This document shows, one piece after another, positions 53,236 through 64,000 of a stretch of 64,000 nucleotides of DNA. Source of the DNA: Candidatus Melainabacteria bacterium. GTDB lineage: Bacteria; Cyanobacteriota; Vampirovibrionia; Obscuribacterales; Obscuribacteraceae. The translations under genes were made by a program, and so were the position numbers. The number at the start of each line of letters is the position of its first letter. Position 1 is the first letter of the stretch. A model generated the notes under the pieces. The model was not told the origin of the DNA. It ran no database searches and worked only from the letters and a program-made list of their open reading frames with translations. The stretch is from assembly GCA_003151275.1 (NCBI GenBank), contig PLXC01000027.1:1-64000 (forward strand), in the 5' to 3' direction.

Positions 53236-53430
53236 TTACCCCCGCCTGCGCGACTGAATGTGCGATCACCACTAAATTGACTGTGTGTGATCCTATCAGG
53301 TAGCCTCTGTCGTGCAAATAGAGGATTCGTGCAAAATGAGGACCTCGGAGAAGTAGATAAGTGTCTGGTAGTCAAGTTTTTCTGTTAAACAGCGGCTGCC
53401 GCTGGGAAAATTACTGGAAAGGAATTGTTG

Positions 53431-54870
53431 ATGTTGCCTCGTTCACTCCAAATTTCTCTGGGCTTATTTGTCAGTTGTGTTGTGGCGGTGTCGAGCCTCA
53501 CTAGTGCCGCGTTCGCGGTCGCACCGCTCGACTATCAGACAGAGTCAAGAATTTTTGATTCTCTTGAAAAGGCTCATGGGCTGATAGTTGCCGACCGATT
53601 CAATGAGGCTAAGCCGTTGCTCGAGTCAGCGGCTAAGTTCGATCCCAGCCGATACTCAGGCTCTTTGCACGAAAATTTGGCGATCATTTATCGCGAGCTT
53701 GGTTATCCGGAAAAGGGTATCTCGCAAGCCAAAACTGCCATGAGATTCGGTGGGTCGCCCGGAATTGCTTACACGATGGGTCTTTGCTATTCCGACATGG
53801 GTGATTTTGACGAAGCCGAGAGATGGTTCCAGCGCTTCATTATCGACAGTCCCGACCCACAATTTCAGCAACAAGCGCGCGATATCATCAAAGACCTGCA
53901 AGATGACAGGCACAAAGTCAGTGCAGGATCGCCAAAGAAACGTGATTATTTTGATGACATAACGGCGAATAAAGAAGCGGAAAAATGGAGACAAACGCTT
54001 CTCCCTTTGAAGCTGTACATTGAACCCGGCAAGGGCGTGAGGGGTTATCGGCCCACATATCGTCGCTTGATCCTGGAGGCTTTTGATTCTTGGTGCAGCG
54101 CTTCGGGTAATAAGCTTTCTTATAAACTTGTGCCGGATCGTGCAAAGGCCGACGCCGTCGTTGAGTGGGTTGGTCAACCGATAAGCACCACTGAGAAGAG
54201 TCGGAAACGTGATGCGGCGGGGCTCACCACTGTGTCTGCGGATGATAAACAGATCATTTCGCATGCCCTAATTCAAATCGAAACCTACGACTTTGAGCGC
54301 AGTAAAGAAGCAGCAGACAGTAAGATCAAAAGCGCTTGTTTGCATGAAATTGGTCATGCGATTGGTGTCGGTCATTCACCTTACGTGAAAGACATTATGT
54401 ATTTCAAAATAACGCCAAGGCAGTTGTTCAGCTTGTCTCCCAGAGACCGAGCGACTGCAGCGAAGCTCTATGCTGATTACCCTGAAGTTACTTTGGTTAC
54501 AGGAACGACTTCTTTGCCACCAGAATGTTTTGCGCAACCTTCGCTTCCTCCAGGCATCATGAGATATCCACCAATCCCTCAGTCGTTCTTTGCCCAACCG
54601 CCCATGCCACCGCAGAACAGGGGCAGTGACTCTGAGGAAGATGTGGCCACAAATTCTCCTTCGGCCTTATTCGCACAGCCGTCGTTGCCAAAATCCACCC
54701 TACGCAGCAAACAAAGTGGTGCCGGTAGCAAACAGCTTTCAATGCCCTCCCATTTATTTGCTCAACCAGCTCTGCCACCTTCGAGTAAAAAAGTTCAATC
54801 ACGGTCGACCCTGAAGCCGTCTTTGCCTTCCCAGTTATTCGCAAAGCCATCACCGCCACCTCAGCGGTAA
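53431..54870 (+). CDS. Secreted TPR and metzincin-like zinc protease with FAQPSLPP repeats
   Basis: A signal peptide is followed by TPR-like repeats (residues ~30-140) and a zinc protease domain. The zinc motif HEIGHAIGVGH (around residue 304) with a downstream Met-turn in DIMYFKI is the metzincin/matrixin pattern, with Glu as catalytic base. The last ~120 residues hold five copies of an F-A-Q/K-P-x-x-P-P/K motif separated by low-complexity linkers. The combination of protein-interaction repeats, protease and proline repeats suggests a secreted enzyme. ATG 53431 follows AGGA. Confidence 0.82.
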   Translation: MLPRSLQISLGLFVSCVVAVSSLTSAAFAVAPLDYQTESRIFDSLEKAHGLIVADRFNEAKPLLESAAKFDPSRYSGSLHENLAIIYRELGYPEKGISQAKTAMRFGGSPGIAYTMGLCYSDMGDFDEAERWFQRFIIDSPDPQFQQQARDIIKDLQDDRHKVSAGSPKKRDYFDDITANKEAEKWRQTLLPLKLYIEPGKGVRGYRPTYRRLILEAFDSWCSASGNKLSYKLVPDRAKADAVVEWVGQPISTTEKSRKRDAAGLTTVSADDKQIISHALIQIETYDFERSKEAADSKIKSACLHEIGHAIGVGHSPYVKDIMYFKITPRQLFSLSPRDRATAAKLYADYPEVTLVTGTTSLPPECFAQPSLPPGIMRYPPIPQSFFAQPPMPPQNRGSDSEEDVATNSPSALFAQPSLPKSTLRSKQSGAGSKQLSMPSHLFAQPALPPSSKKVQSRSTLKPSLPSQLFAKPSPPPQR

Positions 54871-57189: not shown

Positions 57190-57684
57190 CTACGGGGTGA
57201 CAACAAGACGAGTATCCTCTTCGTTGTCAACGAAAACGATCTGGTCTTCTTTATACTTGCGCAAGAGGAAATGAGTTTCGGTCGCCATCACGCCTTCAAT
57301 GGGAGCCAGCTTCTCGGAAACAAAACGGCCGACCTCCCGAATATTAGCGCCTTCAACTGCGACGCGCAGATCATAGCCTCCGGAAACCAGCCATAAGCTC
57401 TGCACTTCAGGAAAGCGATAAATTCGCTCAGCAACTTTGTCAAATCCGACTTCTCTAGCTGGGTGCACTTTGACATCGATAAAGGCGATGACCTTTTCAA
57501 CGCCTGTCTTTTCCCAATCGATAATGGTCTTATAGTGTTTGATCACGCCGAGTCTTTCGAACTCAGCTATCGCCGCTTGGACGTCCTCAACGGTTCGCCC
57601 AAGCATCTTGGCGATTTTCTCAGGCGAGGTTCGCGCGTCGCGGGCTAAAATGGTTAAAATTTCGTCGGGTGCTTCTGACTGCAT
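57190..57684 (-). CDS. Lrp/AsnC-family transcriptional regulator
   Basis: N-terminal winged HTH (ILTILARDARTSPEKIAKMLGRTVEDVQAAIAEFERLGVIKHY) and C-terminal RAM/ligand domain (VSGGYDLRVAVEGANIREVGRF) are both present, 165 residues. ATG 57684 lies at the foot of a 12-bp inverted repeat and has no ribosome binding site, so it may be read from a leaderless or structured message; an upstream GTG at 57702 is inside the repeat. It likely controls the following aminotransferase and itself in response to an amino acid. Confidence 0.92.
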   Translation of the reverse strand: MQSEAPDEILTILARDARTSPEKIAKMLGRTVEDVQAAIAEFERLGVIKHYKTIIDWEKTGVEKVIAFIDVKVHPAREVGFDKVAERIYRFPEVQSLWLVSGGYDLRVAVEGANIREVGRFVSEKLAPIEGVMATETHFLLRKYKEDQIVFVDNEEDTRLVVTP

Positions 57685-57712
57685 AGGCTGATAGTTTAGC
57701 ACTATCAGCCTA
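57684..57712. promoter_or_regulatory. 12-bp inverted repeat at the Lrp start
   Basis: TAGGCTGATAGT (57684-57695) and ACTATCAGCCTA (57701-57712) are perfect inverted copies with a 5-bp spacer. The arm touches the ATG. As DNA it could be an Lrp operator; as RNA it could hide the start codon. Confidence 0.75.
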
Positions 57713-57786: not shown

Positions 57787-60390
57787 TTATCTACGGAAAA
57801 ATCTTCTTCGTGGTTGAGGTTGATAATTCTGTTGATAATATTGCTGGAAGTTGCGGACATTGTTGTTGCAAGCGCTGTCCTGTGTGATTGTCCTTTGTTG
57901 TTCTACGGGGCGAACCGTTTCAGTTACAGGAATGGGAAGCTCGATCGGTTTTACTGCTCTCGTGGCAATCGTCGCATCGACTTGTTCTTTGAGGAGGGCG
58001 TTTATATTAGCTTGGTTGCCGTAGTCGGCATATTGGGCTTGTTCTGGAACGTACTTGCCAGCAGTGTCTTTGTTAACATTGAACACTGTAGTCATGCTTT
58101 GGTCGTTTGTGCGATTGGTTTTGTTGTGGTTTTCCAGGACCGAAGCCGCGTACAATCCCAGTGAAGACTTCGGATCTACTTTGTCTTTGTCAACATAGAC
58201 AACGATTGCCTTGCCGTCCACACTTGCTTGTGCGCCTGCTTGTACCGCGTTTCCATCCCTGCTTGGGGCGATCACTAGCACTACCGGTTTACCTTGCTCC
58301 GTTGCGGCTTTCAATGCATCGGCGTAGTTTTCCTGAGTATATTTGAAATACTTGTCAACATATTCACCGAAGGCATCCTTCTTTGTTTTGGTTTCTGTTT
58401 TTTCTAATTTGTTTTCTTTGGGTTGGACAGTTTCAGTAGCTAAATCGGCATCGGTACGTTTTCTGGACTCTTCAGGTTTCTTTGTTTCGTGCACGGGTTC
58501 GATCGGTCTTTTCTCAAGTTGGCTAGGGTCGATCAGAGGTTTTAACTTTGTTGGCTTATCTAATAGGTGCGGAATACCAGCGTCTGGATTAATTTCGCCA
58601 ATTTTCGGATTTGGATCCAAAGGTGCAGTTTTGTCATGGGTTTTTGGTCCCGGATGCGAAGGTCCGGGTGTCAGGTGAGGAAAGAGCGGTGCAAATTCAG
58701 CAGGTGATTCAACGCCCGGCTTTTTGGGAAGTTCGCAAATGCCGTCGTGGCACACGACACCCTCAGGCTTTTTTGTATGAGGATCGTTGATCGTCATTTT
58801 CGGTAGTAGTTCAGCCGGTTTTTTGGGCTGATCAACTGGTCCCTCTTTCACCATTGGCTTTTTCTCTACGACTTCAGGCTTAACCTCCACTTGTTTCGCT
58901 ATTGGCTTTTTCTCTTCAATTTTTGGTTTGGCTTCAACTTCTGTCGGTCGGAAGATATCGTCGAGTTTGCCTTTTCGGTCGTTGGCATATTTCTCAACAT
59001 CTGCCTGCTTCATGTCGCTGCTCCAAGTGGCACTGGAGATTTTGCTCTTGTTTTTGTCCAGATATTCAAGGGCGGCCAGATTCTCAGCAAGTTTGGCTTT
59101 TGCCTCGGCTGGAATCAAACCTGTCGCCATAGCTTTGGCGTAGAAGTCTTTGGTTTTATCTAATTCATCTTTAGAGATCCAGCCGTTCTTGTCGGAATCA
59201 ATTGCATTGAAGTTCTCGGCGACAAACTTCGCAGCTGCTGTCGATTGTTTCTCGTCTTCACGTGCAGCTTCTTGTTTGCGAAGATATTCCGCCATGCTGT
59301 TGAGGCTGATCTCTTTGCTGCCGCCCCACCCCGCGGGGGCACCGGCAACTTCATCAAATCTGTTTCGCATTTCCTCGATCACTCTGCGCTGATCATTCGA
59401 AAGTGTGTTCTTCCATGCTGGAGTGTCCAGAATTTTGTTAAGTTCCGGGAGAGATATTTTGCCATTACCGTCGAGATCAAGTTCTGCTCTATGGTCGGCA
59501 AGATATTTGATCATTACTTCTGCCATGTAGGAACCGCGCGACATATCGACTAGACCCTTCTTTTCTGGCGCTGCCACCAATTTGTCATCGATTGCAGGTA
59601 TGTGTTCGAGAGATCTAGGATTAGTATTGTTTTCCGCATGCTTGTTAATATCTGCTAAAGAAACTGAGTTGGAAAAGGTCGTGTCATTTACTGCGGACGC
59701 AATCTCGCTTTGATGACCTTTCATGAATTCCAGAGCTTCCCGTTGCTCCTGCAGCGCTTTGGCCGCTTCCTTCGTAACTAAGCCAGGGGTAGCGAGGGCT
59801 CGGTTGTCAAAGTCGATTTGCTTATCCATTTCAGCTGCTGAGATGAAGCCATCGTGGTCGGAGTCGACTGCGTCGAATTTTTCTTTGCTACCAAATTGTT
59901 TAAGGACACTTTGGGCATTGACGTACGCATCGTATTTGGTGTCAGCTTTTGCGACGTAGCCATCCAATTTCGAGCCGGTGATTTCATCGGCATAGCCCCC
60001 CCATGCGGTCGGTGTGGACTGCGCTATTTCCTTGGTGTTCGCCAGAAGGTAAGCAGTCATTTCTCGCTCAAAGGGATCAAGGGAAGCTTGCATCTTTGGG
60101 TCATTTACAACGTGCTGCAGTTCTTTGGCTGAGAGAGAACCGTTGCCATCTAGATCGAGTGCGGAAAAGTTTTTCTTGCCGAAATCAACTGCCAGCTTTG
60201 GTAAATATCCCTGTTCCTGGCATTGCTGTGTTAAGGCGGTTAGAAATTGTTTGTTCGCTTCCGGTTGAGCGCCCGGCTTATTCATTTCGTCATGAATCTG
60301 TTTCAGCGCACCTTGTGTGTCATCGTTTCTCAACTGACCCATTACGCGATCAACTGCTTGTGGTACGGAAGTGTCTCTCGGCTCTGTCAT
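57787..60390 (-). CDS. Large EF-hand protein with thioredoxin-like C-terminus
   Basis: Four canonical calcium-binding loops: DLDGNGSLSAKE (79-90), DSDHDGFISAAE (176-187), DLDGNGKISLPE (305-316) and DSDKNGWISKDE (398-409). The first two and last two are spaced ~95 residues, so a two-EF-hand unit of ~226 residues was duplicated. Then come a long Lys/Pro/Glu-rich linker (residues ~470-670), a globular C-terminal domain (PVVLVIAPSRDGNAVQAG, VVYVDKDKVDPKSSLG) resembling a thioredoxin fold without active cysteines, and an Arg-rich tail. No signal peptide. GGAGG precedes ATG 60390. Paralogous to the divergent gene. Confidence 0.85.
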   Translation of the reverse strand: MTEPRDTSVPQAVDRVMGQLRNDDTQGALKQIHDEMNKPGAQPEANKQFLTALTQQCQEQGYLPKLAVDFGKKNFSALDLDGNGSLSAKELQHVVNDPKMQASLDPFEREMTAYLLANTKEIAQSTPTAWGGYADEITGSKLDGYVAKADTKYDAYVNAQSVLKQFGSKEKFDAVDSDHDGFISAAEMDKQIDFDNRALATPGLVTKEAAKALQEQREALEFMKGHQSEIASAVNDTTFSNSVSLADINKHAENNTNPRSLEHIPAIDDKLVAAPEKKGLVDMSRGSYMAEVMIKYLADHRAELDLDGNGKISLPELNKILDTPAWKNTLSNDQRRVIEEMRNRFDEVAGAPAGWGGSKEISLNSMAEYLRKQEAAREDEKQSTAAAKFVAENFNAIDSDKNGWISKDELDKTKDFYAKAMATGLIPAEAKAKLAENLAALEYLDKNKSKISSATWSSDMKQADVEKYANDRKGKLDDIFRPTEVEAKPKIEEKKPIAKQVEVKPEVVEKKPMVKEGPVDQPKKPAELLPKMTINDPHTKKPEGVVCHDGICELPKKPGVESPAEFAPLFPHLTPGPSHPGPKTHDKTAPLDPNPKIGEINPDAGIPHLLDKPTKLKPLIDPSQLEKRPIEPVHETKKPEESRKRTDADLATETVQPKENKLEKTETKTKKDAFGEYVDKYFKYTQENYADALKAATEQGKPVVLVIAPSRDGNAVQAGAQASVDGKAIVVYVDKDKVDPKSSLGLYAASVLENHNKTNRTNDQSMTTVFNVNKDTAGKYVPEQAQYADYGNQANINALLKEQVDATIATRAVKPIELPIPVTETVRPVEQQRTITQDSACNNNVRNFQQYYQQNYQPQPRRRFFRR

Positions 60391-60876
60391 TTAAAAATCC
60401 TCCAGCGAACGCCTTGTTTGTGAGCGATGCTAGAGACTAATTTGGAATTGTGTCCGTTGTGTACCTTTGCAACCGTTTTTTTATAAGAATGATGGCTGAG
60501 ATCCTGCCTCAGTCAGGAGTAGCGTCAGATATCGGCGCGGATGCAACTCAACCTTCTACCGCGAAGGACTTGATCTAATATGTGAATAAGTTGGTCACCC
60601 TATTGGTTCTTTCTCGAATCAATGATTGCTAGGCCGGCAGTGTGTCACCATATACGGTGGCATATATCTGCCTACGATGAATCTTTATTAGGTTGATGCC
60701 GATTCTAGAAGTTCCAATCTGACAAATCATAGCAATGCTTTGACTGTATACAAGGAACGCGTGAGCATTTGACGTTTTAAAAGTCCAAGGACGCTATGGC
60801 AACCAAGAAGTCACACTTGGAAATTATGCTGTTGAAATCGCTCCAGCGTTGAGCAACTCCCAGGAGGTTTTTTACA
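60391..60876. other. Intergenic region between divergent EF-hand genes
   Basis: About 486 bp. It holds a CACC-N6-GGTG hairpin copy at 60646-60659 and nothing else definite. Both promoters must lie here; no close consensus match is evident. Confidence 0.45.
60646..60659. repeat. CACC-N6-GGTG family hairpin
   Basis: CACC-ATATAC-GGTG in a GTCACC...GGTGGC context, in the middle of the divergent intergenic region rather than at a 3' end. Confidence 0.55.
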
Positions 60877-62466
60877 ATGTCTGATACCCGAATACCAGAA
60901 ACAGCAGAAGCAAAAGGACACAAGGTTGTCGCCGATTTCGAAGGTAGCAAGAATGCCGATAATGCTCGCGCAGCGATCAACAATGAAATTATTGGTCATT
61001 CAGGAGATACTGAATACAACAAAAAGTTTTTGGGAACGGTCACAGAAGATTTGCAAAAAAAGGGGCTTCTTCCAGGGCTGACGGTAGATTTTGGCAAGGC
61101 CCATTTCGCCGAATTTGATCGAGATAAAGACGGATGGGCGAGCGAAGCTGAAATACGTGCTGCTCTAGCTAACAACAAAGACAAATACTCACCGTTGGAG
61201 CGCGTACTGGGCAACCACCTTGCCGACACAGTGGCAGGCAAAGATATTCGCTCTGATGGCTATGTGAAACCATCCGAATTAGATACCTATAAAAAAGACT
61301 TTGCCACCAAATACGATGATTACGAAAATGGGCAGGGAGCTCTAAAGGTATTTGGCGGTAAAGATAATGATAGCTTCGACAAGACCGACACCGATCACAA
61401 CGGACAACTGACTAAAGAGGAGATGAACACTAGATTAACCCGAAATCAAGATATGATCGACAATCTCACATTGCTGCCAGGCAGGAAAGAACAATTAGAA
61501 GAAGAGAACAAAGCTCTGCGTTTTATGTCTGGGGACCATCAGGGCGCCATATCGAAAGCAGACTACTGGGATACCAAATTGGGTTGGGATATCACTCCGA
61601 GTGATTTGAAAGAATACGCAAAAGCCAACAAGAACCCAGCAGACACGCAAGCACCAGCCAAAGTAACTGAAGACACGGTGAGGACAACAGCCAAAGCTGA
61701 GGAGGACTTTCGAGCTGCTAAAGCAGCCCTAGATAAAGGAGCTCTCGATAAAGCAGCCCTCGATAAAGCAGCCCTCGATAAAGTAGCTCTCGATAAAGGA
61801 GCTCTCGATAAAGCAGCTCTCGATAAAGCAGCCCTCGATAAAGCAGCTCTCGATAAAGTCGAAGCTTACGACAAAACGCCATTCGGTAAATACGTAAAAG
61901 AAAATTTGCCTTACACGGAAAAGAACTTTGATGAAGCGTTAGCGAAGGCAGCCAAAGACAGCAAACCTCTTGTGTTTGTGGTAGCTTCTCAAAAAAATAC
62001 AGATGTGGTGACTGCTGCCGCGCAAGCCACTAAAGACGGCAATGCAGTCGTGGTATTTCTTGATCCATCAAAGCTTTCACCGGACTCAAAATGGGGCAGG
62101 TATGCGCAACAGCTCGTTGACACACACAACCGCACGTCGGGTACAAAGGAGGAATCTGTGAGCGCCGTTTTCGGCACGTATCAAGACGGATCAGGTAAAG
62201 CAACTCTGAGACAGCGTGATGCAAGTTTCATGGATCGGGAGCATCCATTGAATGAGTACAACGCCGGATTGAGAGAGTTGATCAAGCAACATGGACCGGT
62301 GTATGCATCGCAACAGCGGGAAGTTCAACCACCGATTCAACAAACAGTAAATCAACGTCCTGTCCAATATGAACAGCCAGTCCAATATCAACAACCAGTT
62401 CAATATGAACAACCTGTTCAATATGAACAACCGGTAAGACGCGGGCTGTTTGGCCGTCGGCGATAA
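60877..62466 (+). CDS. EF-hand protein with ALDKA repeats
   Basis: Two calcium loops, DRDKDGWASEAE (81-92) and DTDHNGQLTKEE (171-182), spaced 90 residues, match one duplicated unit of the divergent protein. A nine-unit A-L-D-K-x repeat (residues 284-328) replaces its long linker. The C-terminal globular domain (PLVFVVASQKNTDVVTAAAQ, VVVFLDPSKLSPDSKWGRYA) is the same thioredoxin-like fold without Cys, and a VQYEQPVQYQQP repeat leads to a basic RRGLFGRRR end. No signal peptide. AGGAGG sits 9 bases upstream. Paralogous to, and divergent from, the gene at 57787. Confidence 0.85.
   Translation: MSDTRIPETAEAKGHKVVADFEGSKNADNARAAINNEIIGHSGDTEYNKKFLGTVTEDLQKKGLLPGLTVDFGKAHFAEFDRDKDGWASEAEIRAALANNKDKYSPLERVLGNHLADTVAGKDIRSDGYVKPSELDTYKKDFATKYDDYENGQGALKVFGGKDNDSFDKTDTDHNGQLTKEEMNTRLTRNQDMIDNLTLLPGRKEQLEEENKALRFMSGDHQGAISKADYWDTKLGWDITPSDLKEYAKANKNPADTQAPAKVTEDTVRTTAKAEEDFRAAKAALDKGALDKAALDKAALDKVALDKGALDKAALDKAALDKAALDKVEAYDKTPFGKYVKENLPYTEKNFDEALAKAAKDSKPLVFVVASQKNTDVVTAAAQATKDGNAVVVFLDPSKLSPDSKWGRYAQQLVDTHNRTSGTKEESVSAVFGTYQDGSGKATLRQRDASFMDREHPLNEYNAGLRELIKQHGPVYASQQREVQPPIQQTVNQRPVQYEQPVQYQQPVQYEQPVQYEQPVRRGLFGRRR
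61726..61860 (+). repeat. Nine tandem 15-bp units encoding ALDK(A/G/V)
   Basis: Nine near-identical 15-bp units (consensus GCTCTCGATAAAGCA) differ by single bases. In-frame repeats like this can expand or contract without breaking the gene, altering linker length between EF-hand and C-terminal domains. Confidence 0.9.
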
Positions 62467-62541: not shown

Positions 62542-63183
62542 CTAATTTTTTTCTTCGTCAGATTGTGGTTTGCTTTGCTCGAAGCCCATAAGCCTATGCA
62601 TGAATGAATCCCACGCTTCATCCATATGATCATCGGCTAGTTCTTTTAATGCATGCGCTTGATCTGTTGCAGCGCGATTATCCCTTGAAGCGCTGTCTGC
62701 AACCTTCTGTAAGTATGATTTCTCGTTGCGAGTCAAATTGAGTTTATCGGCGTTGGCCGCTACTTGCAGAACGCGTTGAGCGATTAGAGGGTCTAACCAT
62801 GAGCTTCCTGAGTTGACTGTTCGAATCGCCACTTCGAGCTTCGCTTTGCTAAATCCGTCTTTTATTATGTATCCGTTTGCGCCTGCTTGAAAGGAAGCGA
62901 ACATGTCTTCATCAGAATCGTGTGAGGTCAGCATTATCGCTTTCAAACCAGGCAATTCTTGTTTCACTGTTTTCGTTACTTCAATGCCATCTACTTTAGG
63001 CAGTCCAATGTCCACTAAGGCAAGATTTGGCGGATTGGCAAGAATCTGGGTGATGGCAGTGGCGCCGTCTGCGGCTTGACCCACGACTACGAATCCCTTG
63101 ATACCATTCAAAGCCACAGAGACTGCCGATCTAATCAGCTCATTATCTTCAACTAGGAATATGGAAATAGTTTCGTCAGACAT
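62542..63183 (-). CDS. NarL-type receiver protein with degraded C-terminal HTH
   Basis: The receiver has VEDNELI, the phosphorylatable Asp in LALVDIGLPKVDG, Thr/Ser in MLTSHD and Lys in GYIIKDGFSK, followed by the SGSSWLDPLIAQRVL linker typical of NarL/FixJ regulators. The usual LuxR HTH (LTxRExEVL) is reduced to NLTRNEKSYLQKV with no complete DNA-binding helices. It may act through protein contact. Ribosome binding site GAGG 5 bases before ATG 63183. It lies 10 bp after the hybrid kinase gene and is probably in its phosphorelay. Confidence 0.85.
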   Translation of the reverse strand: MSDETISIFLVEDNELIRSAVSVALNGIKGFVVVGQAADGATAITQILANPPNLALVDIGLPKVDGIEVTKTVKQELPGLKAIMLTSHDSDEDMFASFQAGANGYIIKDGFSKAKLEVAIRTVNSGSSWLDPLIAQRVLQVAANADKLNLTRNEKSYLQKVADSASRDNRAATDQAHALKELADDHMDEAWDSFMHRLMGFEQSKPQSDEEKN

Positions 63184-63193
63184 GCGAGCCTCA

Positions 63194-64000
63194 TCAACTG
63201 GAAGTAGTGGAAGTCATGGTTAGTGTTTCAATCTCTAGGAGTGCTTCCTCGAAGGCATCTACCAATTGACCATATAACTGGCGCGCTTCGTCCCATGCTA
63301 GATTCCGAGTCGCCTCTCCTATTTGTTTGCTTAGGGATGCCATATCATGCATGGAAATAGTTGAGCAGTAACCTTTCAATTCGTGGGTGTTTGCTTTTGC
63401 CATAGCTAGATCTTGGCTTTCGATTGCGTCCTTTAATTTCGCCAAGATCGCCGGCGTGCCATCAGCAAACATTCGCAAAAGCCTGCAGGCGGCTTCCCAG
63501 CCGAAGTTGACTGTAAGCATCTCGGTGTCTAATCCACGACGTTGATTCTCCGGTGTGACTTCAGTTCTTGAAATATCTTCGCTCACAACAGTAGTGCTGC
63601 GCGATGATCGTTCCAGCTGAAAACGAATTTCGTAAGTTTGGAATTCAACCAACCGATGCGGCAACAAAGTGCTCAACAACTGCTTCAAGCCATCAATCGT
63701 AATTGGTTTGGCGACGTACTCGTCCATGCCAATTGCAATACAATTCTCTCGATCTCCTTCCATAGCATTTGCTGTCATGGCAATAATTATTGGAGAAGTC
63801 TTGATCGTATCGCCCAGGGCTCGTATCTGACGCGTCGCTTCAAACCCGTCCATAACTGGCATTTGACAATCCATCAGGATGACATCAAATTCTTGTTGCT
63901 TAATCAAATCGACTGCTTCCTTGCCATTGCCGCATATAACGGGCGTCAGTCCCAGTTTTCTAAGCTGCAAGTTTGCCACTTCCTGGTTAATTGGATTGTC
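63194..64000 (-). CDS. Hybrid sensor kinase, 3' part (receiver and Hpt)
   Basis: The frame continues past the window end. Visible: a receiver domain starting DNPINQEVANLQLRKLG with the acceptor Asp in VILMDCQMPVMDG and Lys in YVAKPITIDG, then a ~60-residue linker and an Hpt domain with the phospho-His in NTHELKGYCSTIS. This is the C-terminal end of a multi-step phosphorelay kinase. The single receiver protein downstream is the likely next step. Truncated by the window, not by mutation. Confidence 0.88.
   Translation of the reverse strand, partial: DNPINQEVANLQLRKLGLTPVICGNGKEAVDLIKQQEFDVILMDCQMPVMDGFEATRQIRALGDTIKTSPIIIAMTANAMEGDRENCIAIGMDEYVAKPITIDGLKQLLSTLLPHRLVEFQTYEIRFQLERSSRSTTVVSEDISRTEVTPENQRRGLDTEMLTVNFGWEAACRLLRMFADGTPAILAKLKDAIESQDLAMAKANTHELKGYCSTISMHDMASLSKQIGEATRNLAWDEARQLYGQLVDAFEEALLEIETLTMTSTTSS

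Follow-up and report, generated by a model that had tools for sequence, protein, structure and literature searches.

Divergent EF-hand genes with cysteine-free thioredoxin-like domains in a Melainabacteria contig: candidate calcium sensors on a calredoxin-like plan

Selenoprotein N joins an EF-hand to a thioredoxin-like domain within a membrane protein of the endoplasmic reticulum that carries a redox-active selenocysteine. Calredoxin (CRX) of the green alga Chlamydomonas likewise contains EF-hands and a thioredoxin domain, its activity depends on Ca2+, and the paper describing it presents it as conserved in green algae (PMC4911631). The present study concerns two genes, here called A and B, on contig PLXC01000027.1 of a Candidatus Melainabacteria bacterium (assembly GCA_003151275.1), the first 64,000 nucleotides of which were analysed and are referred to as the window; the host is a non-photosynthetic relative of cyanobacteria, and its order is taken to be Obscuribacterales. 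Like CRX, both genes encode canonical EF-hands and a C-terminal thioredoxin fold in a single chain, but neither encodes a redox-active thioredoxin domain, and because this feature fails they are not filed as calredoxins. Their features suggest that A and B are calcium sensors in a lineage-specific family, and the reading we prefer, at a probability of roughly 0.45, is that they are cytosolic sensors built on the calredoxin plan with a responder that has lost its redox chemistry.

The two genes are divergently oriented open reading frames, found where the initial annotation had drawn them. Gene A (57787..60390, minus strand, 867 residues) consists of two EF units, a Pro/Lys/Glu-rich linker, a thioredoxin-like C-domain and an Arg-rich tip; its first EF unit spans residues 1-270 (59581..60390) and its second residues 271-480 (58951..59580). 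Gene B (60877..62466, plus strand, 529 residues) has a single EF unit (residues 1-275, 60877..61701), a linker of ALDK repeats, a Cys-free thioredoxin-like domain (61861..62340) and a Q/Y-rich tail. A strict scan for the 12-residue EF loop finds it at residues 79, 176, 305 and 398 of A and at residues 81 and 171 of B, where chance would supply a mean of 0.002 and 0.003 per protein, respectively (1000 shuffles), and Pfam EF-hand models match both proteins above their curated cut-offs. The canonical loops thus number four in A and two in B, as had been proposed from the sequence, and place both proteins in the EF-hand superfamily; the description of these loops as perfect DxDxDG holds literally for two of the six, the other four being DxDxNG, which is equally canonical.

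Within a unit the canonical hands lie about 90-100 residues apart and do not neighbour each other, and it is the structure model of the B unit (mean predicted local distance difference test score, pLDDT, 88.4) that suggests how each finds a partner. In this model the strands of the canonical hands (residues 87-88 and 178) match those of degenerate hands downstream (129-130 and 239), so that helix-loop-helix hands are paired as the superfamily requires and the unit is predicted to form two lobes, each with one canonical and one degenerate hand. A second structure run used alignment A4 minus two rows, both second units, which were suspected from the identity list to be misaligned. Structure prediction had been suggested as a check by the initial annotation, and the B model does show both EF lobes and a thioredoxin fold. 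We infer that the canonical hands of A and B bind Ca2+.

The C-domains of A and B both lack cysteine, so that the initial description of a thioredoxin-like domain without cysteines stands and a CxxC active site can be set aside. In A the Cys-free domain is placed at about residues 669-800 (57991..58383, minus strand) from Cys positions and the C-domain alignment A3, which took the place of a first alignment, A2; a profile built from A3 had no match below E 0.2 among PDB sequences. B contains no cysteine at all. A has four, and two of these, at 547 and 552 in the linker, form a C-x4-C pair that is kept as CxDGxC in all of the six A sequences compared (window, L001, L038 and P0002-P0004) while the rest of the linker varies; it is a possible redox or metal site. 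As an order-wide motif, C-x-D-G-[IV]-C-P gave 11 matches in 10 of the 53 genomes of the order survey, against 2 in the control, and one of the matches lies in the A/B family.

The comparison with CRX is one of architecture and not of sequence. According to PMC4911631, CRX has four N-terminal canonical EF-hands, a flexible linker and a C-terminal thioredoxin domain in one chain, which is the plan of A, but it carries a redox-active disulphide (Cys238/Cys241) where the A and B domains are Cys-free, and all four of its hands bind Ca2+ within one calmodulin-like domain, in contrast to the predicted pairing of canonical with degenerate hands in A and B. By analogy, A and B may sense Ca2+ as calredoxin does. 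The likeness to selenoprotein N, too, is one of general architecture rather than of sequence. Judged by its domains, a 728-residue protein from the same locus of a relative (L039, genome G038) stands functionally nearer to calredoxin than either A or B does: its B-type EF unit precedes a thioredoxin-like domain of degenerate form (A3, E 6.4e-8) and, unlike A and B, it has an additional C-terminal CxxC domain (Cys 657/660), which scores 20.5 bits with Pfam Thioredoxin, under the cut-off of 23.5. The XopAW family of EF-hand effectors (NCBIfam NF041410) matches the EF-hand regions alone, at 39.2 bits for A and 28.0 for B against a curated cut-off of 120, so neither protein belongs to it. By title, no literature on such proteins appeared among the matches listed by EF-hand and order searches of mostly open literature.

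On the preferred reading, an EF-hand sensor, a linker and a thioredoxin-fold responder that has lost its redox chemistry would operate within one chain in the cytosol. Ca2+ would be taken up by the canonical hands, with the degenerate hands serving as structural partners; the EF unit would change shape; and the Cys-less thioredoxin-like domain, together with the Q/Y-rich, Arg-ended tail, would dock onto a client protein or surface. A would be the constrained member and B the faster-changing paralogue, in which an EF unit may be lost or kept and the low-complexity linker swapped.

Domain and sequence evidence also places A and B among a set of EF-lobe proteins found in this order whose outputs differ, and this set bears on the alternative that comes next in order of plausibility. 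It is conceivable, if unlikely, that A and B are calcium buffers or structural scaffolds, in which Ca2+ would serve stability or buffering and the remainder would be spacer and tail without any signalling; the numerous canonical hands of A, the long low-complexity linkers and a C-domain devoid of catalytic residues would all fit, but a buffer would need neither the tip, which is conserved, nor a thioredoxin-like domain that is both compact and conserved, and sister proteins carry EF lobes beside enzymes. A hidden Markov model (HMM) of the EF lobe (84 positions, from 32 lobes of calpain- and LysM-type proteins, no A or B sequence included) matches three of the four lobes of window A below 1e-3, the third lobe being the exception at 0.4; in window B its matches reach 2e-6 and 0.002 and cover mainly the canonical hand (E-values for a small set of reading frames). 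The same model also recognises the EF portions of four proteins that score above cut-off for Esterase_PHB and thus join EF lobes to an alpha/beta hydrolase of the polyhydroxybutyrate (PHB) depolymerase type (L050:5029-6975, plus; L052:3166-4791, minus; L112:1206-3089, minus; L113:2187-4136, plus) and have no obvious hydrophobic N-terminus.

Peptidase_C2 was found above cut-off together with EF-hands in five of the nine proteins scanned: L051 (3763-7023, minus), L106 (4347-7808, plus), L107 (3753-7358, plus), L111 (757-4392, plus) and L114 (638-2302, minus); L115 fell below. In these five, as in L108, several EF lobes precede the peptidase domain. The Cys/His/Asn triad of calpains can be read, His partly by eye, in five of seven candidates, namely L051, L106, L107, L111 and L108 (2749-6303, plus), the last a candidate by its triad patterns that lay outside the Pfam scan; the exceptions are L114, with Asp in place of Asn, and L115, with no pattern match. 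The contigs that carry two of the EF-hand calpains measure 792 kb and 2.4 Mb (G040 and G017), which makes a stray eukaryotic origin less likely. The calpain genes of L106, L107, L108 and L051 adjoin co-directional EF-lobe genes of about 560-650 residues, and an EF-hand gene cluster is present in G043, G040, G047 and G046. Both the L107 calpain and an EF protein of L110 also match LysM at scores above cut-off.

Rawlings 2015 holds that no bacterial calpain homologue has an EF-hand domain (PMC4631099), and a 2022 paper calls bacterial calpains typically single-domain (PMC9380684); if the EF-hand calpains are real, they contradict the former statement as there worded. More broadly, and tentatively, the order may possess its own cytosolic toolkit of Ca2+ sensor-responders, in which an EF lobe with one canonical and one variant hand is combined with a calpain protease, a PHB-esterase-like hydrolase, a CxxC thioredoxin or a redox-dead thioredoxin, while the A/B locus would be a recombining site at which B sensor modules are exchanged and A is homogenised between lineages. 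EF-hand/thioredoxin fusions are described from a green alga (PMC4911631); a bacterial order related to cyanobacteria has a version with the redox site gone, a sister protein that retains a CxxC thioredoxin, and related EF lobes beside proteases and hydrolases. Active and dead responders, with one or two EF units, form a natural series in which to ask what is left for a thioredoxin fold to do once its redox chemistry is gone, and the whole set offers a test case for outputs under calcium control in bacteria. Within this order EF-hands are by no means rare, despite the initial view that calcium-loaded pairs are rare in bacteria: with the EF-unit profile, 37 of the 53 genomes give a match at E <= 1e-6, a number that may include generic EF-hands, and 5 do so below 1e-80. 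It is the C-domain, and not the EF unit, for which confinement to the order could be established.

Among named relatives, Candidatus Melainabacteria palsa_1080 (L001) is the closest, L002 being a second, weak match, and the A homologue P0004 is labelled Obscuribacterales by its source. A search with the whole B protein found one protein among the 7996 candidates sharing most words. Four syntenic loci were defined by their flanks, an Lrp/AsnC regulator with an aminotransferase on one side and a response regulator with a hybrid kinase on the other. The window has A and a one-unit B; L001 has A and a two-unit B with a KVEAA linker; L038 has A alone (909 residues); and L039 lacks A but has two B-like genes in tandem (269 and 728 residues). 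The divergent pair thus occurs in two of the four loci (the gene contexts of P0002-P0005 lie outside this count), which argues against the earlier idea of a conserved, specialised pair, for which absence of pairing in relatives had been named as the refuting observation. The Lrp/AsnC regulator has a strong match in 30 of the 53 genomes; in 12 of the other 27, used as a control, the Lrp-aminotransferase pair was present in all 12, and the 3.4-8.3 kb on the Lrp side held no EF-lobe gene, A/B match or two-component genes in any of them. The regulator itself is 89-98% identical across the four loci, and the genes adjoining it turn over.

As the initial annotation had observed, a response regulator (62542..63183, minus; a receiver domain and a C-terminal part without Pfam match) and a hybrid kinase adjoin the EF genes, the latter as a C-terminal fragment with receiver and Hpt domains (63194..63979, minus) that is truncated by the end of the window and belongs to a protein of 813 residues in the relative. 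That these genes form one unit with A and B, in which Ca2+ would modulate a phosphorelay, is improbable. The regulator adjoins the EF locus in all four syntenic loci, and its orthologues, found in 8 of the 53 genomes at E <= 1e-40, are strong (below 1e-100) in just three, the same three that carry the EF locus, the other five ranging from 1e-41 to 1e-46. However, strands are opposite or change, gene content varies, the three genomes belong to one small clade in which every neighbour is kept, and no shared control region was seen, since the A-B spacer is poorly conserved (54-77% identity in 200-bp windows between the window and L001). The tie of the EF genes to the two-component genes is one of synteny within a small clade.

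Paralogy of A and B, the unit duplication and the linker swap, all proposed by the initial annotation, are supported; in L001, B has two units and KVEAA in place of the one unit and ALDK of window B. A tree was built from 14 EF units: unit 2 of L001 B falls with the A second units (100/99) and the five B first units cluster together (100/100), several other forks being weak. The unit would therefore have been duplicated before A and B separated, unless L001 B acquired its unit 2 from an A-type gene; window B would then, most simply, have lost unit 2, and the one-unit state is also present in P0005 and the L039 proteins.

Divergence was measured for one genome pair, window and L001, by a Nei-Gojobori count. 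Five flanking genes show a synonymous divergence (dS) of 0.45, 0.35, 0.44, 0.40 and 0.39 and the kinase fragment one of 0.62, against 0.10 for A (0.31 for its C-domain) and 1.21 for B. In 200-bp windows the flanks are mostly 86-95% identical, with a minimum of 73.5% in a gapped intergenic window; A ranges over 94.5-98.5%, with one window at 87.5%, and B over 50-82%. Within B, two C-domain blocks are 91% and 79% identical and the EF-unit blocks 37-60%. The simplest reading of these figures is recombination, in which A would recently have been homogenised, while B would have given way to a distant allele or derive from one, though codon constraint or a rapid evolution of B could also produce such a pattern.

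The B linker contains nine [AGV]ALDK units, the number first counted, which are encoded by a 15-bp tandem repeat of 9.3 copies (61719..61858, plus strand). Because similar KAAADK-type repeats occur in unrelated proteins of the order, it was rejected as a special feature and is regarded as a generic low-complexity linker. The tail of B ends in RRGLFGRRR, and the Arg-rich tip said to be common to A and B is present in alignment A1, where the columns R, R, F and R are invariant across 8 rows; L038 and L045 end similarly. A DNA pattern for the tip, too strict for B's own longer one, occurs in 4 of the 53 genomes (4 matches, 3 in the control), one of them in the A/B family, and the tip was rejected as an order-wide sorting tag. 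The N-termini of A and B are not hydrophobic in a 12-residue Kyte-Doolittle scan (maxima of 0.26 and 0.15, where two neighbouring genes reach 2.48 and 2.96), which, although not a signal-peptide predictor, accords with the initial statement that neither has a signal peptide. Least probable of all is that A and B are exported or injected without a Sec signal, the tip acting as a C-terminal export signal and the B modules diversifying against a target, a proposal that the non-hydrophobic N-termini, the conserved tip and the rapid change of B would suit but that sits poorly with the lack of a tip in the two B-like L039 proteins and with the control-level frequency of the tip pattern.

Carriage of A on plasmids and a role in anti-phage defence were also considered and rejected, there being no match in the plasmid collection and no PADLOC match. 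A scan for promoters and terminators gave 3 and 2, respectively, against 3.1 and 2.3 in shuffles. On the side of A, the flanking Lrp/AsnC-type regulator, identified by Pfam, occupies 57190..57702 on the minus strand. Elsewhere in the window, at 53425-54870 on the plus strand, lies a tetratricopeptide repeat protein that includes a metallopeptidase domain of the matrixin type (Peptidase_M10, 40.4 bits against a cut-off of 24) and carries repeated LFAQP/FAQP motifs in its C-terminal tail.
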